Source: Gammaproteobacteria bacterium (GTDB lineage Bacteria; Pseudomonadota; Gammaproteobacteria; Pseudomonadales; Azotimanducaceae). From it: DNA of 12,124 nt. A program made the translations under genes and the position numbers. The stretch is from the NCBI GenBank assembly GCA_002711495.1, contig PARM01000056.1:3546-15669 (forward strand). Reading direction: 5' to 3'. This document shows positions 146-12,034 of this stretch, one piece after another. Position 1 is the first letter of the stretch. Each line of letters opens with the position of its first letter. Below the pieces are notes generated by a model. It had not been told where the DNA came from, searched no databases, and was given only the letters and a program-made list of their open reading frames with translations.

Positions 146-153
146 CATAAATA
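146..153 (+). promoter_or_regulatory. T4-type late promoter CATAAATA
   Basis: CATAAATA matches the NATAAATA late-promoter motif proposed for T4-like cyanophages (T4 itself uses TATAAATA, read by the gp55 sigma factor and gp33). It sits directly behind the terminator and 37 bases before the start codon of the first fibre gene. By T4 geometry, with the motif at about -13 to -6, transcription would start near position 159. No -35 element is needed for this promoter class. The start site is inferred. Confidence 0.8.
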
Positions 154-192
154 CTTCTAGCTTAGAGAAAGTGTCTGTAGGACTAGAAGTAT
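151..192 (+). promoter_or_regulatory. Inverted repeat able to sequester the fibre start codon
   Basis: ATACTTCTAG (151-160) and CTAGAAGTAT (183-192) are perfect reverse complements and can form a 10-bp stem with a 22-base loop. The 3' arm contains the first two bases of the ATG at 191-193. The Shine-Dalgarno AGGA (179-182) sits in the loop right beside the stem. The 5' arm overlaps the end of the late promoter, so RNA started near 159 would lack most of that arm. The hairpin could therefore form only in RNA read through from upstream. This resembles known control of T4 genes e, soc and 49; the function here is inferred. Confidence 0.65.
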
Positions 193-2893
193 GTCAAAAA
201 TTCTTGCAAATGAAATTGCTAATTTCGGTGATGATTCACCAATAGATCTTAAAGAAGGTCTGAATATCCCTGTCGGCAAACCTTTACAGGCAGCAGGATC
301 TTCTGGCACCTCTGGACAAGTATTATCTACTACTGGTTCAACTGTTGAGTGGGTAACACCATTTAGTGGCAGTTATACAGACTTATCTAATAGACCTACT
401 ATTCCTGCAGCACAAGTAAATGCTGATTGGAATGCCACAAATGGTATTGCTGTTATTTTAAATAAACCTGTTGTTCCTCCTTTATCAAGTGTAACAACAG
501 CAACAGCAGGAACCGCATCACTATCATTTAATGCTTCTAATGGAGAATTTACATACACACCACCAGATCTTTCTGGTTATGCAACAACAACTTCTTTAAC
601 AACTGCAGTAGCAAACTCTAGTAACTGGGATACAGCATATGGATGGGGTAATCATGCGTCAGCAGGATATCTTACAGCAGAAACAGATACAGTAAGCACT
701 GTATTTGGTAGAAGTGTAAGTCCTCAAGCTTGGCAATCTAATACTCAAGATGCTGTTTTATATACTGGAAAACTTATTACTGGATCACACATCATAACAA
801 ATGATGTATACTTTTTTGGACTTGGTGATAATATTAGCATACATGGTGAAGCAGGAGGAGTAACGTACTTAGATAGAGACAGTGCAGATGATAGTCTTCC
901 ATATGCCAGAGGAAGTAATACTGGTAAACGAGTATCTGGTGACTACTTTATTAGAATGAGTGGTGTAACAGGTAATCCATCAAGTCAATTTAAGTTTGGT
1001 AACTCCCATACTGTAGACAGTGTAATGCATCATGATGTTTTTGCAAACTCAGCTGGAAATCCAGTAACATATTCTATTGGTAATGATGATGGTATTATAA
1101 GACTTGGTAATGTACTATCAACAACAGCATATCTAGAAGCATCATCAACAGGAACTAAATTATTTCATAATGGTTCAGAAAAATTAACCACTACTGCAAC
1201 TGGTCTAACTGTTAGTGGAACTCTTGATCTTGGTGCTAATGATTTAACTACTACAGGTAAACTATTATATTCTAATAACTATGCTAACTTGGGTGACCTC
1301 CCAAGTGCAACTACTTATCACGGTATGTTTGCTCATGTGCATGCAGAGGGACATGGGTATTTTGCACATGGCGGAGCATGGGCACAATTATTAGATGAAG
1401 GTTCCTCTATTGATGATTTGGCAGATGTGGATACAACTACTGTTGCTCCTCAAAATGGTCAAGTTCTTAAGTGGAATGGTGCAAACTGGGCACCAGCAAA
1501 TGATTTAACTGGTGGTGGAGGAGGAGGTCTTGCATTAACAGATCTTTCTGCATCAACAGCGACAGCAGCAGGAGGAGGTGCTTTTGCATATAACAATGGA
1601 ACTGGTGTATTTACATACACTCCCCCAGATCTCTCTAATTATGACACTGCATATGGTTGGGGCGATCATTCTACAGAGGGGTATATAACATCTATTGGAG
1701 ATGCAATACAGGATGCTGATTTCACAAGCAATGGTTTGATGAAAAGAACTAATGCTGGAACTTACACATCTATTACTGATAATTCTAGTAACTGGGATAC
1801 AGCGTTTGGATGGGGTGATCACGCACAGGCAGGATATTTAACAACAGAAACTGATAATTTAAGTAGTGTTACTTCAAGAAACCAAGTTACATTAACTCTT
1901 GGTGGAGGATACGGAACTAAAAATTGTGGATCTACTAGTAATCATATCTTATTTGGTGGTCTGGTAATATATGAAAATGACATCATGAATATTGGTGTTA
2001 ATGATAGAACTCTTTTTGGACATCGTAATGGAGCAATAACTTGGTGTGGTGATGATGGAAGTGGTGAAACTGATTGGCAAAACCGTAAATTTGAATTATA
2101 TCATCTAGATTCTAGTCAAAATACAAGTGCAACATATGCATTAGCAGGAGCATTGTATCTTAAAAGTGATGATGGATATCCAATTTCTATTGGTAATGAT
2201 ACTGGAGATATACAATTAGGAAATAAAAGTGGATCAGTAAAATATCTAACAGCATCATCAACAGCAACTAAATTATTTCACAATGGTTCGGAAGTATTAA
2301 CCACTACTGCAACAGGTGTTGATCTTGGTAGTAATAATCTTGTTACCACAGGTAAACTATTATATTCTAACAACTATGCTAACTTAGCTGATCTTCCAAG
2401 TGCAACTACTTATCATGGTATGTTTGCACATGTACATGCTCAAGGTCACGGATACTTTGCACATGGTGGAGCATGGACACAACTATTGGATGAGGGTTCC
2501 TCTATTAATGAGTTATCCGATGTAACCACAGGAACTATCTCTACTGGAGATGTATTGACATGGAGTGGTAGTGTTTGGGAAGCAGCCGCTCCTACTGGTG
2601 GAGGAAACACTCAAGTAAGTATTAGTGATACTATTCCTGCAGGATCTGCTAGTGCTGGTGATCTATGGTGGGAGAGTGACACTGGTCGTTTAAAAATTTA
2701 CTATCAAGATGTTGATAGTGCACAATGGGTTGATGTAAACGCACCACTTCGTCAGGATAGAATTGCATCTACTGGTGCACCATCTTCTGCTACCGATACT
2801 GGTGTTGCAGGAGACATTAGATATGATTCTAATTATGTTTACATTGCTGTTGGAACCAATACTTGGAAGAGAGCAGCACTAACAACTTGGTAA
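191..2893 (+). CDS. Tail-fibre-like structural protein with internal duplication
   Basis: The 900-residue protein is rich in Ser, Thr, Gly and Asn, with no signal peptide or membrane segment, and is probably a beta-structured trimeric fibre. Residues 1-55 form an anchor-like N-terminus (MSKILANEIANFGDD). YTDLSNRPTIP and FTYTPPDL modules follow near 62-127, and FTYTPPDL recurs at 474-481. DTAYGWGxH-type motifs begin at 143, 483 and 532. A unit of about 110 residues occurs twice (295-406 and 666-771), each copy ending in a His-rich stretch. Residues 441-446 are six glycines. The C-terminus carries two compact motifs common in marine phage fibres, AGDLWWESDTG (822 on) and GVAGDIRYDS (871 on). 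AGGA at 179-182, eight bases upstream, supports the start at 191. It is downstream of a late promoter and a possible start-hiding hairpin. The family is recognised from recalled patterns; attachment point and receptor are unknown. Confidence 0.85.
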   Translation: MSKILANEIANFGDDSPIDLKEGLNIPVGKPLQAAGSSGTSGQVLSTTGSTVEWVTPFSGSYTDLSNRPTIPAAQVNADWNATNGIAVILNKPVVPPLSSVTTATAGTASLSFNASNGEFTYTPPDLSGYATTTSLTTAVANSSNWDTAYGWGNHASAGYLTAETDTVSTVFGRSVSPQAWQSNTQDAVLYTGKLITGSHIITNDVYFFGLGDNISIHGEAGGVTYLDRDSADDSLPYARGSNTGKRVSGDYFIRMSGVTGNPSSQFKFGNSHTVDSVMHHDVFANSAGNPVTYSIGNDDGIIRLGNVLSTTAYLEASSTGTKLFHNGSEKLTTTATGLTVSGTLDLGANDLTTTGKLLYSNNYANLGDLPSATTYHGMFAHVHAEGHGYFAHGGAWAQLLDEGSSIDDLADVDTTTVAPQNGQVLKWNGANWAPANDLTGGGGGGLALTDLSASTATAAGGGAFAYNNGTGVFTYTPPDLSNYDTAYGWGDHSTEGYITSIGDAIQDADFTSNGLMKRTNAGTYTSITDNSSNWDTAFGWGDHAQAGYLTTETDNLSSVTSRNQVTLTLGGGYGTKNCGSTSNHILFGGLVIYENDIMNIGVNDRTLFGHRNGAITWCGDDGSGETDWQNRKFELYHLDSSQNTSATYALAGALYLKSDDGYPISIGNDTGDIQLGNKSGSVKYLTASSTATKLFHNGSEVLTTTATGVDLGSNNLVTTGKLLYSNNYANLADLPSATTYHGMFAHVHAQGHGYFAHGGAWTQLLDEGSSINELSDVTTGTISTGDVLTWSGSVWEAAAPTGGGNTQVSISDTIPAGSASAGDLWWESDTGRLKIYYQDVDSAQWVDVNAPLRQDRIASTGAPSSATDTGVAGDIRYDSNYVYIAVGTNTWKRAALTTW
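1073..1408 (+). repeat. Internal duplication, copy 1 (fibre residues 295-406)
   Basis: This stretch is repeated at 2186-2503. It runs from SIGNDDG through KLFHNGSEKL and GKLLYSNNYANL to the His-rich YHGMFAHVHAEGHGYFAHGG and LLDEGSS. The DNA is very close: the segment around GGTAAACTATTATATTCTAA at about 1257-1291 differs from its partner by a single base over about 35. This suggests recent duplication or gene conversion. Copy 1 is six residues longer, mainly because it has TVSGTLDLGAN where copy 2 has VDLGSN. Confidence 0.88.
2186..2503 (+). repeat. Internal duplication, copy 2 (fibre residues 666-771)
   Basis: This is the partner of 1073-1408, running from SIGNDTG to LLDEGSS. All five histidines of the His-rich segment are kept (His742, 747, 749, 753, 758, matching 377, 382, 384, 388, 393). 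Part of the sequence before the unit also corresponds between the halves (FTYTPPDL followed by an NWDTAYGWG-type motif), so the duplicated block may once have been larger. Confidence 0.88.
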
Positions 2894-2901
2894 AATAAAT
2901 A
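2894..2901 (+). promoter_or_regulatory. T4-type late promoter AATAAATA
   Basis: AATAAATA matches NATAAATA and directly abuts the TAA stop (2891-2893) of the first fibre gene. Transcription would start near 2907 by T4 geometry, giving a leader of about 18 bases that begins with the Shine-Dalgarno AAGGAG (2908-2913), 11 bases before the ATG at 2925. No terminator precedes it, so read-through from upstream can also supply this gene. Confidence 0.68.
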
Positions 2902-2924: not shown

Positions 2925-4025
2925 ATGGCAATTAATTTTCCTGCAACAACAGGGCAAGCAACTGATGGAACTTTTACATACACCGTAGCGGGTATTGTAT
3001 ATGCATGGAACGGATCTTCGTGGGCAGCTGCTGGTGCTGGTGCTAGTGCTACTGATAGGTCATTGTTTAGTGTTACTACAAACTCTGCTAACGCTACTCC
3101 AGCATTAAGTTATGACAATAACACTGGTGTGTTTACATATACTCCACCACTTCCAGAATCTGATACATTACAATCTGTAGTTGATAGAGGTAGTACTGTC
3201 ACAACAGATATACAGACTAGAGGAAAATTAGATTGTAGACCTACCTCTGGTGGAGTCGCTAATAGCATATATATTGACCCGAATAGTGGTAATGGTGAAC
3301 TTAAGTTGTATAATGATGTTAAAGCTTTATTTGGATTTGGTGATGATCTTCAAATATATCATTCAGACCCCGATAATTATATCAAATCAATCCAAGGAAC
3401 TTTAAAAATTCAAGGTAATGCCATTACTCTTGAAAACGAAGATGGTGATGAACAGTATATTGAATGCGTTGACGATGGTTCAGTAAAAATCTACGATGAT
3501 GGTACTCCTAGGTTAGAAACAAGTTCAACAGGAGTTACTATTAGTGGTGCATTGACTGCGGGTGGACTCACATACCCAACAACTAACGGGACTAGTGGAG
3601 ATGTTCTTACCTCGGATGGATCAGGAAATGTTACATGGTCTGCTCCCACAGGATTACAATCTAGAGCAACAATATCAAACACATCATCTCTTGCCAATGA
3701 TGCTACTGCTAATGTTTCCTTTACTACACCTAAAACATATGTACTACTAAAAGTAGAAACATCACATGGTGCATGGGTAACATTGTACAGCGATACATCT
3801 AGTAGGACTGCTGATGCATCAAGACAAATTAGTGTAGATCCCATACCTGGTTCTGGTGTTTTAGCAGAGGTTATTACAACTGGAGCACAAACACAGTTAA
3901 TTACGCCAGGTGCAATTTGTTTTAACTCTTCTGGATCAGGAACAACGTACGCAAAAATAGTTAATAAATCTGGATCAACAGCGAACGTACAAGTAACACT
4001 CACATACGTTGCACTAGAGGCTTAA
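2925..4025 (+). CDS. Tail-fibre-like structural protein, short
   Basis: The 366-residue protein has the modular make-up of marine T4-like fibres. The N-terminus MAINFPATTGQ with WNGSSW at 28-33 resembles short attachment domains of phage fibres. FTYTPP occurs at 70-75. A GDDLQIYHSD-type motif lies around 139-148, and RLETSSTGVTISG follows near 190. The last 120 residues or so (244-366), from LQSRATIS to VTLTYVALEA, form a separate beta-rich unit with YVLLKVETSHGAWVTLYSD, a type I recall at the C-terminus of many cyanophage fibre proteins, where it may be the receptor-facing head. A strong AAGGAG site and its own late promoter support the start. It lacks a Peptidase_S74 domain. Its stop is one base before the next start, so translation of the enzyme gene is probably coupled to it. 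The structural role is inferred; the receptor is unknown. Confidence 0.82.
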   Translation: MAINFPATTGQATDGTFTYTVAGIVYAWNGSSWAAAGAGASATDRSLFSVTTNSANATPALSYDNNTGVFTYTPPLPESDTLQSVVDRGSTVTTDIQTRGKLDCRPTSGGVANSIYIDPNSGNGELKLYNDVKALFGFGDDLQIYHSDPDNYIKSIQGTLKIQGNAITLENEDGDEQYIECVDDGSVKIYDDGTPRLETSSTGVTISGALTAGGLTYPTTNGTSGDVLTSDGSGNVTWSAPTGLQSRATISNTSSLANDATANVSFTTPKTYVLLKVETSHGAWVTLYSDTSSRTADASRQISVDPIPGSGVLAEVITTGAQTQLITPGAICFNSSGSGTTYAKIVNKSGSTANVQVTLTYVALEA

Positions 4026-4026
4026 T

Positions 4027-7000
4027 ATGTCAGAAAAAATCTATATAGTCACTCTTCATAAGCATGAGGACTTAGAAGAATTTTATGTTGAGATGAAAGA
4101 AAAAGGTTTTCGTCTAAACATGAAACGTCCTATCAGTAGGAACACACACTATTGGATGACTGATGAACAAGCAAAAGAATTAAAAAATGATCCTAGAGTG
4201 TGGGATGTTGATTTACGACCAGAAGACAAAGGTATTTTTCCAGAAAGTTATAGAACAATAGAAGATAAATTAGTTCCATATCAAATGAATGGTGTCTTTT
4301 GGAAAGGAGATACACAGGGAGCATCGACCATAGACAGTATCAATGATAAAGATTGGGGAAAAATACATGTTGCTGGAAACTCTGCACAAAGAGATAAAAA
4401 TGTTTTTGGATTAATTTCTGGTGGTGGAACTGTAGAAAAAAAACCTGATGTGGTAGATATATTCAGTGATGGTAGAAATGTTGATGTTGTTATATGTGAT
4501 GATCCAGTAACAAGTAACTGTAATGAGTGGTCAAGTTATGTTAAGGAAAGTAGATTTGTTCCTTATCAATGGTTTAACGAATTGAATAGTATTGTTGGTA
4601 GTATTGATGACGATGGTGAAACATTACCAACTGGTGATGTATATTACTGGCAATCTAATGAGAATCCAGAGTATCATGGAACTCATGTCACTGGAACAAT
4701 AGCATCAAAACATTATGGTTGGGCACATGAAGCAAACATATATGGTTGTCAAATTTTAGGTACATGGCCTAGTTCTCCAGCAAGTGGTATTACTGGTGGT
4801 CAAAATATGCCAGCATTATTATTGTTCGATTATCTTAGAGCATTTCATAGAAATAAAAAAGTAAATTCAGTAACTGGTTTTAAAAATCCAACAATAACTA
4901 ATCATAGTTGGGGATATAATATAGGAACATCATTAGAGAATGCTTTTGAACCAGCTATTACTACTGCAGATATCATAGAAATTAATTATCGAGGCATACA
5001 ATATAACTCTAGTAATCCTAATCCTAGTGGTTGGACTATGGATGGTATTGAAAAAGATTTTGGTATTGGTGCAACAAAATGGAAGATACCAAGTAATATT
5101 ACCTCTGTTAACGCTGATGTATATGATGCAATACAAGATGGTATTGTTATAATATCTGCTGCGGGAAATAGTAATTTTCATGCTGTGTATCCAAGTGATA
5201 TTGATTACAACAACTATGTAAGATTTAATGGTTACAATGGTAACTCAGAAATTTATTTTAATAGAGGTAGTTCTCCTGCTAGTGCTGATGATTGTATTTG
5301 TGTAGGAGCATTGGATAACAGTCATCAATTTAAAAGATCATCTTACACAAACTTCGGACCTAGAATTGATGTTTTTGCACCTGGCAATAATATAATATCT
5401 ACGTGGGGAGATCCAAGTGTAATAACTGGTCAGTTAGCTGGTGCAGGAATTGTTGATGGTAAATGGTTTGGTAATGATTGGATATATCCTATACAAGGAA
5501 CTAGTATGGCGTCTCCTCAAGTTGCTGGCGTAGCAGCACTTATTGCTGGTGCTAGAAGAACAGATAGGTTTAGTAACTATGACCTTCTACAATATTTTGA
5601 TGATAATAGTATCTTTGGTGACATGACATTTGATACTGGTAGTGGAGGAGGTTCATCTCCCTCAACATTTAATGTAACTGTGACAACGCCAGGTTTTAAC
5701 TATGAAGCAACGTCTGGAACTGATAGGAATGGATCTGTGAGTGGAATAGGTTTTGTGGTAACTTTATATGTTGGAGATACAATTAATTTTAATTTAAGTA
5801 ATGTTGCATCCAACCATCCATTCTATATTAGAACAGTATCTGGATCAAATGTAAGCACACCAGCTGCGAGTGGTCAAGGTTCTATTGGTAATGGAACAGT
5901 ATCGTGGACACCAAATACAGCGGGTTCATACAGATACATATGCGGTATTCATTCTAGTATGGTAGGAGTTATTGATGTACAAAGTGTACCTTCTATCACA
6001 GGGACATTTGCTGATGATACTTGCAGAAAAGATAGTCCAAACAAATATTTACATCTTAATCCTATTAGACCAGAGTCTGGATTTATATTATCTGGCAAGA
6101 TAGGATGTAGAACAAGAGATGATTTTATTGGTCGAAGACAATATGTAGGTCCTGTATTTCCTAGAACAAAAAAATTATATTCTTCTCGTGGATTTCCTAG
6201 TGGAATTTTATCTGGTTCATCACCATCACAACAATTAGAAATTACAAAAGAGTGGAGAAATCCTACAGGTGATGGTGCAACTGCAGCATTACATCAATAT
6301 GTCTCTGAAATATATGTACCAACAAATGAATCTCCTGCTGATGGATATCCAGTTATGATTTGTTTACATGGTAACCTTGGTAATGGAACTGTTATTAATG
6401 ATCCTCCATACAATTCACTCACTGATCATATAAGAGTAGGTCCTAATGGTTCATTTGCTAGTTGGAATATTGTAGATGAGAATAGCACTGCACCTGACAT
6501 ACAGTATCTAAAAGAACTTATTAATCTATTGAAAACTTTTAACAATGTAGATGCAACAAAAATTAGAATTTCTGGTATATCAAATGGTGCAGCACTAGCA
6601 TGTAGGGCGTTTATTGAAATTGATGACCCTGCTGTTGATATGATTATTCCAATCGTCTCTCAATTCCACATCAAACAATACGCACCTGTTCAATTCTTTA
6701 TGCCAAGTGATGATTATGAAGTCTCATCTAGCAATACTTCTACTTATGGTTATGATGTTCAAAAAGTTCCTGCAACTGGTAGAAAAATATTAATGATACA
6801 AAATTCCAATGATGGAACTATACCATATACTGGTGGAACTGGTGTCGGTATTCAATTCCTATCTGCACAAGATTCTACTTATGCTATGGCATTGGCAATG
6901 GGATATAGTGGTGGTATAGATTCGAGTGGTGAAACATATCAAGGAGATTCAACTACACAAATATATCGTTATAATATAAATGGAAATCAAAATGAAGTTG

Positions 7001-7434
7001 TTCACGCCACATCTAGCACTGCTGGACATGGAACAAATGCTAAATTAAATGCTATATTTGATGAGTGGGTGGAGAGTGATGGCACTTCAATAACAATGGT
7101 CTCTCCTACTCAAACATTTAATATAACAACTACTAATTCTGGTTTCTCATATGTTTTAAATGGAACGGATAGAAATGGATCTGTTTCTGGCACAGAACCA
7201 ACAGTTACGGTACAAGTAGGAGATACAATTAATTTTAATTTATCAAACGTTGCGAGCAATCATCCATTCCGTATTAGAGTATCAAGTTTAGGTGCAGATG
7301 TAAGCACTCCAGCAGCATCAGGACAAGGTTCTACAGGGAATGCAACAGTATCATGGACACCAAATACAGCAGGATCATATGTATATCAATGTGGTTTTCA
7401 TAGTAGCATGGTAGGAACTATTATTGTCACATAA
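4027..7434 (+). CDS. Subtilisin-cupredoxin-esterase-cupredoxin fusion protein
   Basis: This 1135-residue multi-domain protein has no signal peptide or membrane segment. Residues 1-67 look like an I9-type inhibitor prodomain. The S8 subtilisin domain follows (about 145-520): catalytic Asp158 in VDVVICDD, His217 in YHGTHVTG, HSWG at 293-296, oxyanion Asn381 in SAAGNSN and nucleophile Ser493 in GTSMASP. The Asp motif reads D-D-P where D-S/T-G is usual. A cupredoxin domain (546-651) carries ligands His597, Cys639, His642 and Met645. Residues 739-1018 form an alpha/beta-hydrolase of the PHB-depolymerase/feruloyl-esterase type: oxyanion LHGNLGNG (780-787), nucleophile Ser852 in GISNG, Asp929 and His1001. 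A second cupredoxin (1029-1134) ends the protein with His1079, Cys1122, His1125 and Met1128. AGAGG at 4016-4020 and the TAATATG stop-start junction support the start. Its place between fibre genes suggests a virion-associated enzyme acting on host surface or virion proteins; that role, and copper loading, are inferred. Confidence 0.87.
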   Translation: MSEKIYIVTLHKHEDLEEFYVEMKEKGFRLNMKRPISRNTHYWMTDEQAKELKNDPRVWDVDLRPEDKGIFPESYRTIEDKLVPYQMNGVFWKGDTQGASTIDSINDKDWGKIHVAGNSAQRDKNVFGLISGGGTVEKKPDVVDIFSDGRNVDVVICDDPVTSNCNEWSSYVKESRFVPYQWFNELNSIVGSIDDDGETLPTGDVYYWQSNENPEYHGTHVTGTIASKHYGWAHEANIYGCQILGTWPSSPASGITGGQNMPALLLFDYLRAFHRNKKVNSVTGFKNPTITNHSWGYNIGTSLENAFEPAITTADIIEINYRGIQYNSSNPNPSGWTMDGIEKDFGIGATKWKIPSNITSVNADVYDAIQDGIVIISAAGNSNFHAVYPSDIDYNNYVRFNGYNGNSEIYFNRGSSPASADDCICVGALDNSHQFKRSSYTNFGPRIDVFAPGNNIISTWGDPSVITGQLAGAGIVDGKWFGNDWIYPIQGTSMASPQVAGVAALIAGARRTDRFSNYDLLQYFDDNSIFGDMTFDTGSGGGSSPSTFNVTVTTPGFNYEATSGTDRNGSVSGIGFVVTLYVGDTINFNLSNVASNHPFYIRTVSGSNVSTPAASGQGSIGNGTVSWTPNTAGSYRYICGIHSSMVGVIDVQSVPSITGTFADDTCRKDSPNKYLHLNPIRPESGFILSGKIGCRTRDDFIGRRQYVGPVFPRTKKLYSSRGFPSGILSGSSPSQQLEITKEWRNPTGDGATAALHQYVSEIYVPTNESPADGYPVMICLHGNLGNGTVINDPPYNSLTDHIRVGPNGSFASWNIVDENSTAPDIQYLKELINLLKTFNNVDATKIRISGISNGAALACRAFIEIDDPAVDMIIPIVSQFHIKQYAPVQFFMPSDDYEVSSSNTSTYGYDVQKVPATGRKILMIQNSNDGTIPYTGGTGVGIQFLSAQDSTYAMALAMGYSGGIDSSGETYQGDSTTQIYRYNINGNQNEVVHATSSTAGHGTNAKLNAIFDEWVESDGTSITMVSPTQTFNITTTNSGFSYVLNGTDRNGSVSGTEPTVTVQVGDTINFNLSNVASNHPFRIRVSSLGADVSTPAASGQGSTGNATVSWTPNTAGSYVYQCGFHSSMVGTIIVT
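5662..5979 (+). repeat. Cupredoxin domain, copy 1 (residues 546-651)
   Basis: The segment encodes a plastocyanin/amicyanin-like beta-sandwich. The ligand pattern is His597 (SNHPF) and the loop Cys639-x2-His642-x2-Met645 in YICGIHSSM, which is the amicyanin spacing. GDTINFNLSNV and TVSWTPNTAGSY are shared with copy 2 at 7111-7428, and a 24-base stretch coding GDTINFNL is identical in both. A GSGGGSSPS linker precedes it. Confidence 0.85.
6241..7080 (+). other. Alpha/beta-hydrolase (esterase-type) domain, residues 739-1018
   Basis: The domain order fits the PHB-depolymerase/feruloyl-esterase (LpqC-like) branch. YPVMICLHGNLGNG supplies the oxyanion loop. RISGISNGAALACRA is the nucleophile elbow with Ser852. 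ILMIQNSNDGTIPYTGG places the acid Asp929 before the usual PY, and AGHGTNAKLNAIFDEW places His1001 before a C-terminal helix. All three catalytic residues are present, so activity is plausible. Possible substrates are ester-linked polysaccharide decorations, polyesters or lipids; none can be chosen from sequence. Confidence 0.78.
7111..7428 (+). repeat. Cupredoxin domain, copy 2 (residues 1029-1134)
   Basis: This is the partner of 5662-5979, at the extreme C-terminus of the fusion protein. Ligands are His1079 (SNHPF), Cys1122, His1125 and Met1128 in YQCGFHSSM. Both copies are 106 residues, with a one-residue shift on either side of the first His. The close DNA match suggests recent duplication within the gene or import of the same module twice. 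Confidence 0.85.
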
Positions 7435-7437
7435 ATA
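7430..7437 (+). promoter_or_regulatory. T4-type late promoter CATAAATA
   Basis: This perfect NATAAATA match is identical to the one at 146-153. The TAA stop of the fusion gene (7432-7434) lies inside the motif. Transcription would start near 7443, about 26 bases before the ATG at 7469. No terminator lies between the genes. Confidence 0.72.
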
Positions 7438-7468: not shown

Positions 7469-10400
7469 ATGGCAGATCGTTTTCCGTTGATAGTAAATGC
7501 AGTTTCTCAAAAAATTGAGGAATTGATTTCTGGCGACAATTTAGAATTAACTGGTAATAATATTGTTATTGGTGGAGACACAGGTGCAGGAAAATACCTG
7601 ACGAGTGATGGTTCTGTTGTTTCGTGGGGTTCACCTGGCGATGTGTATTTGAATCAATCACAAATTCTTACTAATAAAACGTTAGAGAGTAGTGTTATAT
7701 CTGGATCACTCAATACACTAACGAATATACCAAACTCTGCTTTTGTAAACTCAGCAATAACTGTAAACGGTGCTTCTATTCCTTTAGGTGGAAGTGTTAT
7801 AACTCCAAATGATGATACCACTTACTCTATTAGTATGGGTGATGGCGTTTCTTCTAATGAGAAAAAAATAATTTTGACTGCTGGTGGATCTGGATCTGGA
7901 ACTGATGAAATTAATATTGCTGTAGGATCTCCACAGACAATTCCTGCAGGATCTAATGCTCTTAGTCTAGCAATTGCAAGATCAGGAGATACAGTAACTA
8001 TTTCTGGTACAGCACCTGATGCTGATACTGTCACAACTTTAAAATCTGCAGTTGGTGGTACATCACAAACAGGTGACATAACAATTGCTGCCACTGGATC
8101 TTCTACAGTATCTCAAGATCCATCAACCAAAACAATTACAATCAATTCTTCTTACGTCGATACGATTACAAAAATTAGAGCGACTACAGGACAGGTATTA
8201 AATCCTGGCAACTTTACATTCTTAGATGGTGGTGCTACTACTGTTGCTCAAGGCGTAGATGGTAATGGTGATACAACAATAACTTATGAATCTACCGATA
8301 CAGTTACTAGAATAAAAGGTGGAGGAGCTGGAACATTAGTATCAGGAGACGTAACATTTTCTGGAGGTTCTGGTGGTAATGTAACCGTTAGTCAAAGTGG
8401 TAATACTATTAATATTGATAGTGTAGATAATGATACAGTAACTAGATTGGCATCAGGTTCATCTGCTGTTACTGCAGGAGATTTTAAATTCTTAGCAACA
8501 GGTGCTACTAGTATTTCACAAGCAACAGCTGGTGGTGTAACTACATTTACTATTACATCTACCAACACTGATACTGGTGCATCATTAACTGCATCAAAAG
8601 GAATTATATTATCAAATAATGATTTTCAATTAAAAAATGCTGACAATTTAACTGGTAATAGTTTATTAAAATGGGACTCAGGTAATAATCAAATAGGAAG
8701 CAGTCTCATAGCAGACAATGGATCTACCGTAACAATTAGTGGAGATTTAGTTGTTGATGGAACTCAGACAATTTTAAATACAAGCACTCTACAGGTAGAA
8801 GACAATATTATTGAACTTAGAAAAGGTCAAAATATTGTTGGTGCTGATGGTGGTATACAAGTAAACAGAACAACAGATAATACTGGATCAGTAACTGGAT
8901 ATCAGTCATTACAATGGTATGAAACTGGTGGTTACTGGAGAGGATGGGATGGATCTGTTGAAAGGAGATTTGTTACAGAAACAGAAACACAAATTCTTAC
9001 AAACAAAACTCTTACTTCTCCTACACTTACTGCTCCTGTTTTAGGTGCTGCTACTGCTACATCAATCAATGGACTTGAGATTGCTTCTACTGCGTCTGCA
9101 ACTTTAGATGTTGCCACTTCTAAAACATTGGATGTTAATGAGTCTATGGTGCTATCATCAGAAAACTCTACTGCATCAATTGATGTTAATTTTAGATCTG
9201 GTGGAGATGTAGCATATAGATCTGATACTCTTGCATCATTCTCATCTACAACATCCACACAGATGCGTGGTTTGATTACAGATACAACAGGATTAGATAA
9301 ATTAGTATTCCAAACCAACCCTACAATTTTAACTGGTATTACTACAACCTCTAGTGGTTTCAATTTAATTAATTCTGGTGCTACTAGCATTCAGTTTGGT
9401 GGTGCAGCAAGTTCAATTACCATAGGTGATGCGACTGGTGACACAACAATAAATCATGATTTAATAGTTAGCGAAGATCTTACAGTTGGTGTTGACACAA
9501 ATGACAATGCAGTATTTAATGGTAATGTCAACATTGAGAATGTAGATCTTATTATTCGTGGAACAACTTTAGATCCAATGTCAATTGGTAGAGGTGGTGG
9601 TGCTGTAAATACAAACACTCGTATGGGTGTATCTGCACTAGCTGCCAACACTTCGGGATCTCAAAATACCGCATTTGGATACCAAGCATTGCTCACAAAT
9701 AATGTTGGTGCATCGAATACTGCAATTGGAAATAGAGCTTTAAGAGTAGCGGGTACAGCTAGTAACAATATTGCGATAGGAAAAGATGTAATGCTTGTTA
9801 CTCTTTCGGGTGGAAAAAACGTTGCTATTGGTAACAATGCAATGGAGACCAACGAAACTGGTGAAGCAAATGTTTGCATCGGACACTACGCAGGATATGA
9901 CGTAAAAGGAACTGGTAACGTTCTTATAGGTCCTGCTGATAATGAGACTTCTGCTGATGTAACATTTAGACCTCCTAATATCAGTGGTGATAGACAGTTA
10001 GTTATTGGTTCTGGAGGAGTAGCATGGATACGTGGTGATTCTAATTATGATGTTTCTCTTAGTAATGATCTTACTGTTAATGGAGATACTCTTGTTAAAG
10101 GTAACCTAACAGTCAATGGTACTACAACCACAGTTAAATCTAATATCGTAGAGATTACAGATAAAGCAATTGAACTTGCTGCTGTTGTAAGTACAACATT
10201 TACATGTACTGTGGTAAATGGATCTCCAAATATCTCATCAATTTCTCCTACATTAGGATTGATACCTGGTATGGAGGTTACATCCAACACTGCTGGTATT
10301 ACAGTTCCTGCAGGAACAATTATTGTAAGTATTGCAACTAACGGAACTGCAGTGTTAAGTAATAACGTAACAGGATCTGGTACACCCACATTTAGTGCAA

Positions 10401-12034
10401 TAGGTCCTTCTGATTCTGCTGCGGAAGATGGTGGTATTATTGTTAAAGGTACAACCGATAAAACATTCCTTTGGAGAGGAACTGATGGTGGCGTATCATA
10501 TAATAGTTGGACATCATCAGAACATATAGATGTTGCTGCAAATAAAAATTACTTTGTTAATGGTATTATGTTTGCCAGTGATCAAAACAAAGTTATAGGA
10601 CCTACAAATGGTAGTGGTCAAGGACAAACAACCTCTACATTTACTCTTGGTAGTGCTGTTACAGGATCATCATTAACATCTGTTGGAGTTCTTAATTCAT
10701 TGTCTGTTTCAGCTGACAACAGTTCTGGTGTAATCGCATCATTTGAAAACACAAATAACGCTGGTGGATTTGGTGTAAAGATTAAGGGAGGTGGAACTAC
10801 TGCTGATCGTTATGCACTAAGAGTTGATAATGCTGCTGACGAAGAAATCTTTAGAGTAAATGCAAACAAGAAGGTTGGTATTGGAACCGCTAGTCCAACA
10901 GAACTACTTTCTCTTGGTTTTGCAGATGGGTCAGGTGGTAACTCTACATCTGGAACGATAGAGTTTAGAACTACATCCTATTCTAAAGTTGCAATGATTA
11001 GAGGTGCTGATGATACAAGTAATGTAAATGATGGTAATGTTCGTGGAAGTTTGCGTTTTATAACTCGTCTTGCTGGTAATGAAAATGAGAGGATGCGAAT
11101 CACATCGGATGGTAAAATCGGTGTCAATATAACTGACAACACCACCGCAGATTTACATGTGAGAACAGGAAATAATGGTGCTGGACTCTTCAGACTTGGT
11201 GGTGGCACTGGCGGTGCCACTGGACTGGATTTGGATTATACTAATGCTGGTACAACTAAAACAACAATTAAACAAAATTATAGATCTACAAACAATGGTG
11301 CAGAGTTAGCACTTGACTCTGGTATCATAACATTTAGGACTGGTACTCTTGGTGAAGAAAAAATTCGCATCGACAGTCAAGGTAGACTTGGTATTAACAC
11401 GACTAATGTTGGAGGTCCTGGCAAATTCCTTCATGTGGAAAGTCAAATTGGTGACTCAAATCATTTTATTGCAGAGTTTACAGGAGAGGACACTGTCCTT
11501 AATAGTATTAGTAGAGCAGCTGCTTGTAATTTTTATTACATGCTTTGTGGTTCAGATGATAACAGAACTGGTTTGTACTGGGAGCATCAGCAAGTTACTA
11601 ATATTCGTATGTGGATGGATGATAGTGGAGAATTAAGACAATCTAATTCAGATCCACAGTCAGAGAGTTCTGGAACACCTTTCGCATATTCTGGTGGTTC
11701 TGATTATAGGTTAAAAGAAAATGTTGTAGATTACACTGATGGAATAACAGAATTAAAACAATTAAAACCATATAAATTTAATTACATAGAAACTGATCAA
11801 GCAAAAGTTGATAAACCTGACGTTTTATGTAGTGGTTTTTATGCACATGAAGCGGGTACAGTAGTTCCAAGTTCATTAATAGGAGAAAAAGATAAAGTTT
11901 CTTCATCAGGAGTTCCTGTTTATCAGCATCTTAAATATGAAAAATTTGTTCCATTACTAACAGCTGCTTTACAAGAAGCGATTGCTAAGATAGAAACTCT
12001 TGAGGCAAAAGTTGCACAACTAGAGGGGAACTAA
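7469..12034 (+). CDS. Large trimeric fibre protein with C-terminal Peptidase_S74 chaperone
   Basis: The 1521-residue beta-rich protein starts MADRFPLIVNAVSQKIEEL, an N-terminus type I recall from marine T4-like fibres. In order: QILTNKTL motifs at 65 and 508; four tandem repeats of 45-46 residues (186-367); paired label motifs GDLVVDGT (425) and GNLTVNGT (878); a YadA-head-like array of NxAIG turns with 17-residue period (733-821); a GMEVTSNTAGI/VPAGTIIVSI module (about 909-978); and GIGT-like motifs at 1137, 1218 and 1308. The Peptidase_S74 domain begins at SDYRLK (Ser1411, Lys1416) and ends in a coiled coil. In this family the C-terminal domain drives trimer folding and then cuts itself off, here predicted just before Ser1411, releasing about 111 residues. 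The ribosome site is weak (GGTAG at 7460-7464). It is probably the longest fibre or appendage in the cluster; its exact position on the particle is unknown. Confidence 0.87.
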   Translation: MADRFPLIVNAVSQKIEELISGDNLELTGNNIVIGGDTGAGKYLTSDGSVVSWGSPGDVYLNQSQILTNKTLESSVISGSLNTLTNIPNSAFVNSAITVNGASIPLGGSVITPNDDTTYSISMGDGVSSNEKKIILTAGGSGSGTDEINIAVGSPQTIPAGSNALSLAIARSGDTVTISGTAPDADTVTTLKSAVGGTSQTGDITIAATGSSTVSQDPSTKTITINSSYVDTITKIRATTGQVLNPGNFTFLDGGATTVAQGVDGNGDTTITYESTDTVTRIKGGGAGTLVSGDVTFSGGSGGNVTVSQSGNTINIDSVDNDTVTRLASGSSAVTAGDFKFLATGATSISQATAGGVTTFTITSTNTDTGASLTASKGIILSNNDFQLKNADNLTGNSLLKWDSGNNQIGSSLIADNGSTVTISGDLVVDGTQTILNTSTLQVEDNIIELRKGQNIVGADGGIQVNRTTDNTGSVTGYQSLQWYETGGYWRGWDGSVERRFVTETETQILTNKTLTSPTLTAPVLGAATATSINGLEIASTASATLDVATSKTLDVNESMVLSSENSTASIDVNFRSGGDVAYRSDTLASFSSTTSTQMRGLITDTTGLDKLVFQTNPTILTGITTTSSGFNLINSGATSIQFGGAASSITIGDATGDTTINHDLIVSEDLTVGVDTNDNAVFNGNVNIENVDLIIRGTTLDPMSIGRGGGAVNTNTRMGVSALAANTSGSQNTAFGYQALLTNNVGASNTAIGNRALRVAGTASNNIAIGKDVMLVTLSGGKNVAIGNNAMETNETGEANVCIGHYAGYDVKGTGNVLIGPADNETSADVTFRPPNISGDRQLVIGSGGVAWIRGDSNYDVSLSNDLTVNGDTLVKGNLTVNGTTTTVKSNIVEITDKAIELAAVVSTTFTCTVVNGSPNISSISPTLGLIPGMEVTSNTAGITVPAGTIIVSIATNGTAVLSNNVTGSGTPTFSAIGPSDSAAEDGGIIVKGTTDKTFLWRGTDGGVSYNSWTSSEHIDVAANKNYFVNGIMFASDQNKVIGPTNGSGQGQTTSTFTLGSAVTGSSLTSVGVLNSLSVSADNSSGVIASFENTNNAGGFGVKIKGGGTTADRYALRVDNAADEEIFRVNANKKVGIGTASPTELLSLGFADGSGGNSTSGTIEFRTTSYSKVAMIRGADDTSNVNDGNVRGSLRFITRLAGNENERMRITSDGKIGVNITDNTTADLHVRTGNNGAGLFRLGGGTGGATGLDLDYTNAGTTKTTIKQNYRSTNNGAELALDSGIITFRTGTLGEEKIRIDSQGRLGINTTNVGGPGKFLHVESQIGDSNHFIAEFTGEDTVLNSISRAAACNFYYMLCGSDDNRTGLYWEHQQVTNIRMWMDDSGELRQSNSDPQSESSGTPFAYSGGSDYRLKENVVDYTDGITELKQLKPYKFNYIETDQAKVDKPDVLCSGFYAHEAGTVVPSSLIGEKDKVSSSGVPVYQHLKYEKFVPLLTAALQEAIAKIETLEAKVAQLEGN
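8024..8569 (+). repeat. Four tandem 45-46-residue repeats in the fibre shaft
   Basis: Units start at Asp186, 231, 277 and 322 and the next D-T begins at 368, giving spacings of 45, 46, 45 and 46 residues. Each begins D-T-[VI]-T-x-[LI], has a central G-[DN]-[IFV]-[TK]-[IF] strand and ends in an [IV]-T-[IF] or TINI-type strand. The DNA copies have diverged, so the array is old and kept at the protein level. It probably forms a repeating beta-shaft. Confidence 0.8.
9665..9931 (+). repeat. YadA-head-like NTAIG repeat array, 17-residue period
   Basis: The motif N-[TIV]-[ACL]-[FI]-G starts at residues 733, 750, 767, 784, 801 and 817, so the period is 17, 17, 17, 17 and 16 residues (51 bases). It resembles the left-handed beta-roll heads of trimeric autotransporter adhesins, whose usual repeat is nearer 14 residues. 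It would form a trimeric bulge in the fibre, possibly adhesive. Confidence 0.8.
11699..12034 (+). other. Peptidase_S74 intramolecular chaperone domain (residues 1411-1521)
   Basis: The SDYRLKENV start matches the S-D-x-R-x-K signature, with the Ser1411/Lys1416 pair needed for self-cleavage in characterised members such as phage endosialidases. LKQLKPYKFNY and GFYAHEAG follow, as is typical. The final helix, PLLTAALQEAIAKIETLEAK, has a heptad pattern. Length is normal for the family and both catalytic residues are present, so cleavage is expected. Confidence 0.9.

Follow-up and report, generated by a model that had tools for sequence, protein, structure and literature searches.

We found that a single gene in a 12,124-nucleotide stretch of DNA (positions 3,546 to 15,669 of contig PARM01000056.1, assembly GCA_002711495.1; this whole stretch is called the window) encodes one cyanophage protein carrying an intact S8 protease, an intact esterase and two blue-copper-type (cupredoxin) domains. 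The reading that we favour, at a probability of about 0.6, is that this is a late enzyme of the structural module of a T4-like marine cyanophage of the Kyanoviridae type, which would sit on the tail fibre or baseplate and act on the host surface. An earlier reading made from the DNA letters (the sequence-only reading) had claimed four domains in this frame, and all four were recovered with complete active-site or ligand residues. The simple serial order that it gave did not hold, since the first cupredoxin is placed by the models inside the protease fold. The gene and its parts are as follows.

4027..7434, plus strand: whole gene, 1135 amino acids and a stop codon
4027..4278, plus strand: propeptide-like N-terminal domain, residues 1-84 (predicted secondary structure; predicted local distance difference test, pLDDT)
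4279..5649, plus strand: S8 subtilisin, first and main segment, residues 85-541 (profile match, catalytic residues, model)
4498-4500, 4675-4677, 5167-5169 and 5503-5505, plus strand: S8 catalytic codons D158, H217, N381 and S493
5650..5991, plus strand: cupredoxin C1, residues 542-655, nested in the S8 fold according to the models; ligands H597, C639, H642 and M645
6001..6075, plus strand: last segment of the S8 fold, residues ~659-683, with the SPNKYL strand (model)
6076..6246, plus strand: linker, residues 684-740, partly of low confidence (model)
6247..7101, plus strand: alpha/beta-hydrolase esterase, residues 741-1025 (fold and triad)
6580-6582, 6811-6813 and 7027-7029, plus strand: esterase triad codons S852, D929 and H1001
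7102..7431, plus strand: C-terminal cupredoxin C2, residues 1026-1135; ligands H1079, C1122, H1125 and M1128

The S8 part matched PF00082 (Subtilase) with 78.1 bits against a curated cut-off of 21.8 bits and was modelled with a subtilisin fold. The Asp, His and Ser of the triad and the oxyanion Asn were all present, as the sequence-only reading had stated, and were conserved in an S8 family alignment of 141 rows including the window protein (H217, N381 and S493 in 141/141; D158 in 134/134 of the rows with a letter at that column, with 7 gaps). In a wider set 219 of 235 S8 proteins matched the text motifs, 15 missing HGx[H/A/N] and one missing GTSxA. The N-terminal domain was modelled in the order beta-alpha-beta-beta-alpha-beta, residues 70-79 being of low confidence, and the N terminus, judged by eye, did not look like a signal peptide. 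The alpha/beta-hydrolase had the fold and Ser-Asp-His triad of acetyl xylan or feruloyl esterase-like enzymes, and the complete triad claimed for it was likewise conserved (S852 and D929 in 79/79 aligned esterases, as was H781; H1001 in 78/79 with one gap). When compared with the relative L009, the ratio of non-synonymous to synonymous substitution (dN/dS) was about 0.20 for both the S8 domain and the esterase.

C2 matched PF00127 with 23.5 bits (cut-off 21.2 bits); C1 gave no PF00127 stretch of its own in the profile search and was identical to C2 at 77 of 104 positions. The His-Cys-His-Met ligand set of type-1 copper sites was complete in both. Among 190 aligned domains of at least 81 amino acids, a set that includes the two domains of the window and many close relatives, the ligand columns held His in 190, Cys in 189, His in 189 and Met in 190, the single gap at Cys and His being that of S-CAM1. 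When the set was reduced to 25 representatives below 50% identity (mean pairwise identity 33.8%), the ligands were four of the six best-conserved cupredoxin columns. This conservation spans proteases, tail fibres and gp9/10-like baseplate proteins. An identity as amicyanin (TIGR02657) was rejected (25.3 bits against a cut-off of 110.2 bits); the likeness is limited to the C-x2-H-x2-M loop spacing.

Three observations bear on the position of C1. In the fold comparison, for which the ranges give the first and last aligned residue only, the aligned part of the model ended at residue 679-706 in all 50 of the matches listed (50/50), that is, past C1. The blocks at residues 661-680 had a pLDDT of 81-89 in the full-length model, and residues 656-685 had a pLDDT of 35-42 in a model without the S8 domain. 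In relatives that lack C1, a segment of the SPNKYL type directly follows the S8 body. Because the S8 alignments, the S8-dependent order of residues 661-680 and the C1-less relatives agree, we conclude that C1 is, by the models, inserted into the loop preceding the last S8 strand. The profile search of solved sequences did not trace the S8 domain to its last strand, and the nesting therefore rests on the models. In two of the fold comparisons the matches listed were subtilases throughout and hence uninformative on the other domains; one further comparison covered mainly the esterase. In two relatives (P0091 and P0096) a cupredoxin at residues ~165-274 separates the propeptide region from the main S8 body, and the S8 protease thus accepts insertions at more than one site.

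The gene lies in a cluster of fibre genes, as the sequence-only reading had said, with genes for fibre or virion proteins on both sides. Its neighbours and the associated sequence motifs in the window are:

191..2893, plus strand: tail fibre gene, 900 amino acids (phrog_9729)
2925..4025, plus strand: 366-amino-acid gene directly upstream of the protease gene (phrog_9627; no function assigned in PHROGs)
7469..12034, plus strand: virion structural/fibre gene, 1521 amino acids, with a C-terminal Peptidase_S74 intramolecular chaperone
147..153, plus strand: ATAAATA, 38 bp before the tail fibre start
2895..2901, plus strand: ATAAATA, 24 bp before the 366-amino-acid gene
7431..7437, plus strand: ATAAATA, 32 bp before the 1521-amino-acid gene

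The motif ATAAATA, which we take to be like a T4 late promoter, occurs four times in the contig, always on the plus strand and always 23-38 bp upstream of a predicted gene start. Since a single base separates the protease gene from its upstream neighbour, the two probably share a transcript. A hypothetical gene homologous to this neighbour also stands just ahead of the S8 gene in S-WAM2 and ACG-2014e. The 366- and 1521-amino-acid genes were matched by 77 and 138 phage records, respectively.

Upstream of the window, the 15,669-bp contig encodes a ferredoxin-dependent bilin reductase (L008:67-750; PF05996, 186 bits, E 1.1e-54), a SegE-type GIY-YIG endonuclease (PF19835), a transaldolase (talC, PF00923) and a glutaredoxin (PF00462), the latter two above cut-off, and a probable 2-oxoglutarate (2OG) oxygenase that stayed below cut-off with 18.2 of 27 bits. 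In Synechococcus phage S-WAM2, talC and glutaredoxin are followed by genes for a Phd antitoxin, gp206 and a 2OG oxygenase, and then by two small genes, a tRNA, the tail fibre, a hypothetical protein, the S8 protein and the virion protein; the contig has the same order minus the Phd antitoxin and gp206 genes. The gene order from talC to the virion protein and the presence of a cyanobacterial host gene, the bilin reductase, both agree with an assignment to the Kyanoviridae. The bin that holds the contig (1.85 Mb, 82.88% complete) gave no match to the photosystem family PF00124 and none to small-subunit ribosomal RNA (SSU rRNA); the gp23 major capsid protein had no match in the bin, and its control also matched nowhere. 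A first scan of genome contigs found no relative, and a search of 58 related genomes, including the window's own, gave a match in 18, the sole full-length one being that of the window itself. The taxonomy of the bin was rejected as evidence on the host in view of this sole full-length match, the missing PF00124 and SSU rRNA, and the bilin reductase on the contig. Because the contig carries a bilin reductase and the relatives of the protein are cyanophages, we interpret the contig as DNA of a cyanophage that was assigned to an unrelated bin.

A surface enzyme acting at the time of adsorption, as first proposed, remains the best reading, and we infer its location on the virion from gene context. 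In S-CREM1 the gene for a relative of the protease belongs to the baseplate cluster; it follows 'baseplate wedge subunit and tail pin' and lies two genes ahead of 'baseplate wedge subunit'. The esterase has homologues with the same triad in S-SSM4 (CYXG_00060) and S-ShM2 ('gp7'), where it is fused to a YHYH domain (PF14240), without protease or cupredoxin, and encoded in the baseplate cluster, flanked by a virion structural gene and a gene of the gp9 type. YHYH has been predicted to be a tail-associated metal-dependent hydrolase (PMC7824862, in part), and YHYH domains were noted in the structural operon of related phages (PMC7029224, in part). The S-ShM2 gene (L003:9200-10921) is annotated as 'gp7 baseplate wedge initiator', and since it encodes the YHYH-esterase protein this label looks doubtful. 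A cupredoxin of the same family stands at the end of gp9/10-like proteins from Syn9, P-RSM4, P-SSM3 and S-WAM1, all four of which (4/4) carry PF07880 (T4_gp9_10_N) above cut-off; one of them, the baseplate protein BSV9_gp102 of Syn9, has the ligand-bearing domain at its end together with the T4 gp9/10 N-terminal domain and, unlike the window protein, no enzymes. The 1135-amino-acid protein itself had no PF07880 match at E up to 0.1.

On the reading as a surface enzyme, the N-terminal propeptide would hold the subtilisin inactive up to its own removal, presumably by autoprocessing. The protease on the virion would then cut host surface proteins and the esterase would strip ester groups from surface polysaccharide, and together they may open a path to irreversible adsorption. 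The two cupredoxins would be type-1 copper domains, of a kind found on several tail and baseplate proteins of these phages, serving as stable docking or adhesion modules with a functional copper ion, possibly with a redox role.

Some of the same observations could be accounted for by a virion maturation enzyme, in which the subtilisin would trim adjacent fibre or baseplate proteins while the virion is assembled, with the esterase and cupredoxins contributing to assembly or stability. The N terminus is propeptide-like, the gene is embedded among fibre genes and the protein of the following gene has an S74 chaperone at its end, a class of proteins known to cleave themselves, so that proteolysis is normal in such clusters. 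We nevertheless regard this as unlikely, given that the esterase has no clear assembly role, that the relatives vary freely in the presence of the esterase and the number of cupredoxins, which is more like a surface-facing part, and that the prohead protease of T4-like phages belongs to another family. A role off the virion, with the protein released at lysis or active inside the host, would be in line with a virion location not backed by proteomics and with a match of the PADLOC 'subtilase' model to the protein (2.5e-10). That match is generic for S8 proteins, and a reading as a defence system was set aside on this ground. The modules in common with gp9/10-like and tail fibre proteins and the position in fibre and baseplate clusters make such a role very doubtful.

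Several results weigh against the surface enzyme with copper-bearing modules. The 1135-amino-acid protein had no PF05922 (inhibitor I9) match at E up to 1, and in two relatives, S-WAM2 and S-H9-1, this match stayed below cut-off (E 0.042 and 0.056). The esterase fell far short of the model for type-1 short-chain polyhydroxyalkanoate depolymerases (NF050058; 38.1 bits against an NCBIfam cut-off of 150), so that this identity was rejected and no substrate could be assigned from it. The four copies of ATAAATA are fewer than the chance mean of 7.9, and it is therefore their placement alone that argues for function. Proteomic detection of the protein in virions was not found in the parts of the published virion lists covered; such lists give 41 proteins for S-SM1 (PMC3037559) and 14 for S-CREM1 (PMC9964418), and the S-CREM2 virion table contained no S8 protease in the portion that precedes its hypothetical proteins (PMC10665884). 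As to copper, of the 435 cupredoxin domains with 86 or more amino acids, 34 missed the strict ligand pattern, about half of these carrying Gln in place of Met, and a nine-protein S8 branch (L199, L201, L213, L215, L217, L222, L223, L229 and L231) had lost most of its copper ligands with GTSMASP intact in 9/9, which indicates that copper is dispensable in some relatives.

It might then be supposed that the cupredoxins bind no metal and serve as beta-sandwich spacers or for adhesion, since cupredoxin folds can act as scaffolds and the domains that fail the pattern include S8-linked ones that still align over their length. We consider this quite improbable. The ligands stand among the most conserved columns at a mean identity of about 34%, the strict pattern was retained in 401/435 domains (42 of the 50 clusters formed at 50% identity, and 13 of the 19 formed at 40%), and the deviating S8 branch had, by eye, lost several ligands together, as would be expected once the metal is abandoned. 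Among the three options that the sequence-only reading had left for these domains, conservation thus favours true copper sites, and an additional adhesion role may hold. Copper in the cupredoxins of this protein is strongly favoured by the sequence comparisons, though it is not universal in the family. A further step, which we offer tentatively and with low confidence, is that cyanophage tails and baseplates bear true blue-copper centres as a common module, one of them within a virion protease, and that copper loading or reduction would gate or target the entry enzyme. This would be a copper counterpart to proposed iron-bearing tail fibres. For T4 gp37, metal on a phage tail protein has been proposed or shown in the form of iron sites (the Ferrojan, or Trojan, horse idea), with iron bound via HxH motifs as opposed to the type-1 copper domain here (PMC11705849, in part), and an equal role for copper would be an analogy only.

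A second, distant cupredoxin-like family was observed, accounting by eye for 16 of the 34 domains that missed the pattern and marked by a C-x2-H-x3-Q signature. Long viral open reading frames (L143, L145, L147, L148, L155, L112, L128, L133 and others) have a YYWCHFHTGQG-type end with Gln at the place of the axial Met, which we take to be reminiscent of stellacyanin.

Of the 7,994 candidates scored in the protein search (those sharing most words), 554 matched at E up to 0.001, and the best 120 of the 554 matched proteins were used for the family work. Of these 120, 57 were S8-MID-EST-C, 33 were S8-C-MID-C, two had the architecture of the window protein and 28 had other layouts (MID, end of S8 plus linker; EST, esterase). 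The two, metagenome clusters P0001 and P0002, repeat all four domains at 93% and 89% identity over the full length and are sequence variants only. An assembly chimera of unrelated genes, which a single contig in a metagenomic bin might suggest, is refuted in substance by these two proteins, and with three of the four domains also joined in the phage ACG-2014h it is scarcely credible.

A census covered 330 proteins carrying one or more of the domains (209 from phage and IMG/VR loci, the 120 listed proteins and the window protein); it is a non-random set, as the loci were gathered by searches with these very domains, at least 80 loci in each of two. The commonest layout was S8-EST-CUP (77; CUP, cupredoxin), followed by S8-CUP (58) and S8-CUP-CUP (46), and S8-CUP-EST-CUP was found in 3/330, namely the window protein, P0001 and P0002. 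Phage records matched the whole protein (117), C2 (53) and the esterase (65), all under the names Synechococcus, Prochlorococcus, cyanophage or 'Marine virus'; the 47 that matched the S8 part included two Acinetobacter phages at the weak end. The four-domain protein is thus a rare reshuffled form within a little-studied phage family that occurs commonly in ocean data, and many described proteins of exactly this architecture were not found. The combination does not, as had been supposed, stand alone.

The family itself is not new, as its member in Synechococcus phage ACG-2014h (S-MbCM7) is already in GenBank as a 'hypothetical protein' (S-MbCM7_177, YP_009008311.1, 974 amino acids). That protein joins propeptide, S8, esterase and cupredoxin and is likewise encoded between tail fibre and virion structural genes, the same gene types that flank the gene in the window. 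It differs in having no nested cupredoxin, in sequence (~43% identity in the S8 part and 34% in the rest) and in a terminal cupredoxin of another lineage. S-H9-1 PQC11_gp171 and ACG-2014e AAJ58_gp173, at the corresponding locus, have S8 and one terminal cupredoxin with neither esterase nor nested cupredoxin. Prochlorococcus phage P-HM2 PHM2_106 (1827 amino acids) has an S8-like part and a cupredoxin 70% identical to C2, and differs by having no esterase match, weak Ig-type Pfam matches further on and another locus. An S8 peptidase is mentioned for P-HM1 and P-HM2 (PMC3037559, in part), and no description of the family, as S8/subtilisin-like or cupredoxin proteins of cyanophage, was found in the open-licence PMC literature. 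Relatives are also encoded in a Euryarchaeota metagenome-assembled genome (MAG; L234, WTIV01000062.1, 3.6-kb contig, 47% in the best segment) and a Rickettsiales MAG (L235, NZHE01000019.1, 30% in the best segment), both of which are probably misbinned phage DNA.

By sequence comparison the four-domain form arose by module swapping, and its two cupredoxins come from different lineages. Compared with P0003 (S8-EST-CUP), identity was 84-90% in the propeptide region, S8, MID and esterase, and 49% in the terminal cupredoxin. C2 and the nested cupredoxin of P0060 were 90% identical, against only 52% in S8; in the comparison with P0074, identity was 82% for C1 and 47% for S8. At the DNA level C2 was 86.7% identical to a stretch of L158 that immediately follows the S8 body in the gene concerned, and the part from the 366-amino-acid gene through C1 was 71.7% identical to L158. 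Synonymous divergence (dS) from L009 was 1.19 in C2 and 0.35-0.59 in the other parts compared. In the cupredoxin tree, which was built from 80 of the 190 domains and has few columns and several long branches, C1 fell with P0074, P0075 and P0071, and C2 with P0060, P0082, P0115 and P0091, both in starred clades. Because domain-wise identities, dS and the tree disagree between parts of the protein, it is probable that two sources contributed the cupredoxins, one in replacement of the terminal domain and one as an insertion. A plain tandem duplication of one cupredoxin was rejected, since C1 and C2, despite their mutual similarity, group with different relatives. This mosaic history shows that single modules, and not whole genes alone, move between phage proteins.

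If the copper sites are real, phages of the ocean's most abundant phototrophs bear redox-capable copper proteins on their virions, of which no description was found in the open-licence literature among the matches listed. The family offers a testable answer to how cyanophages cross the host surface layer, and since the cultured phage ACG-2014h has the three-domain form, activity, copper content and virion location are measurable now.

The tail fibre gene showed apparent internal repeats at window positions 1236-2746, where different portions of the gene align to one common stretch of L158, and likewise of L159.

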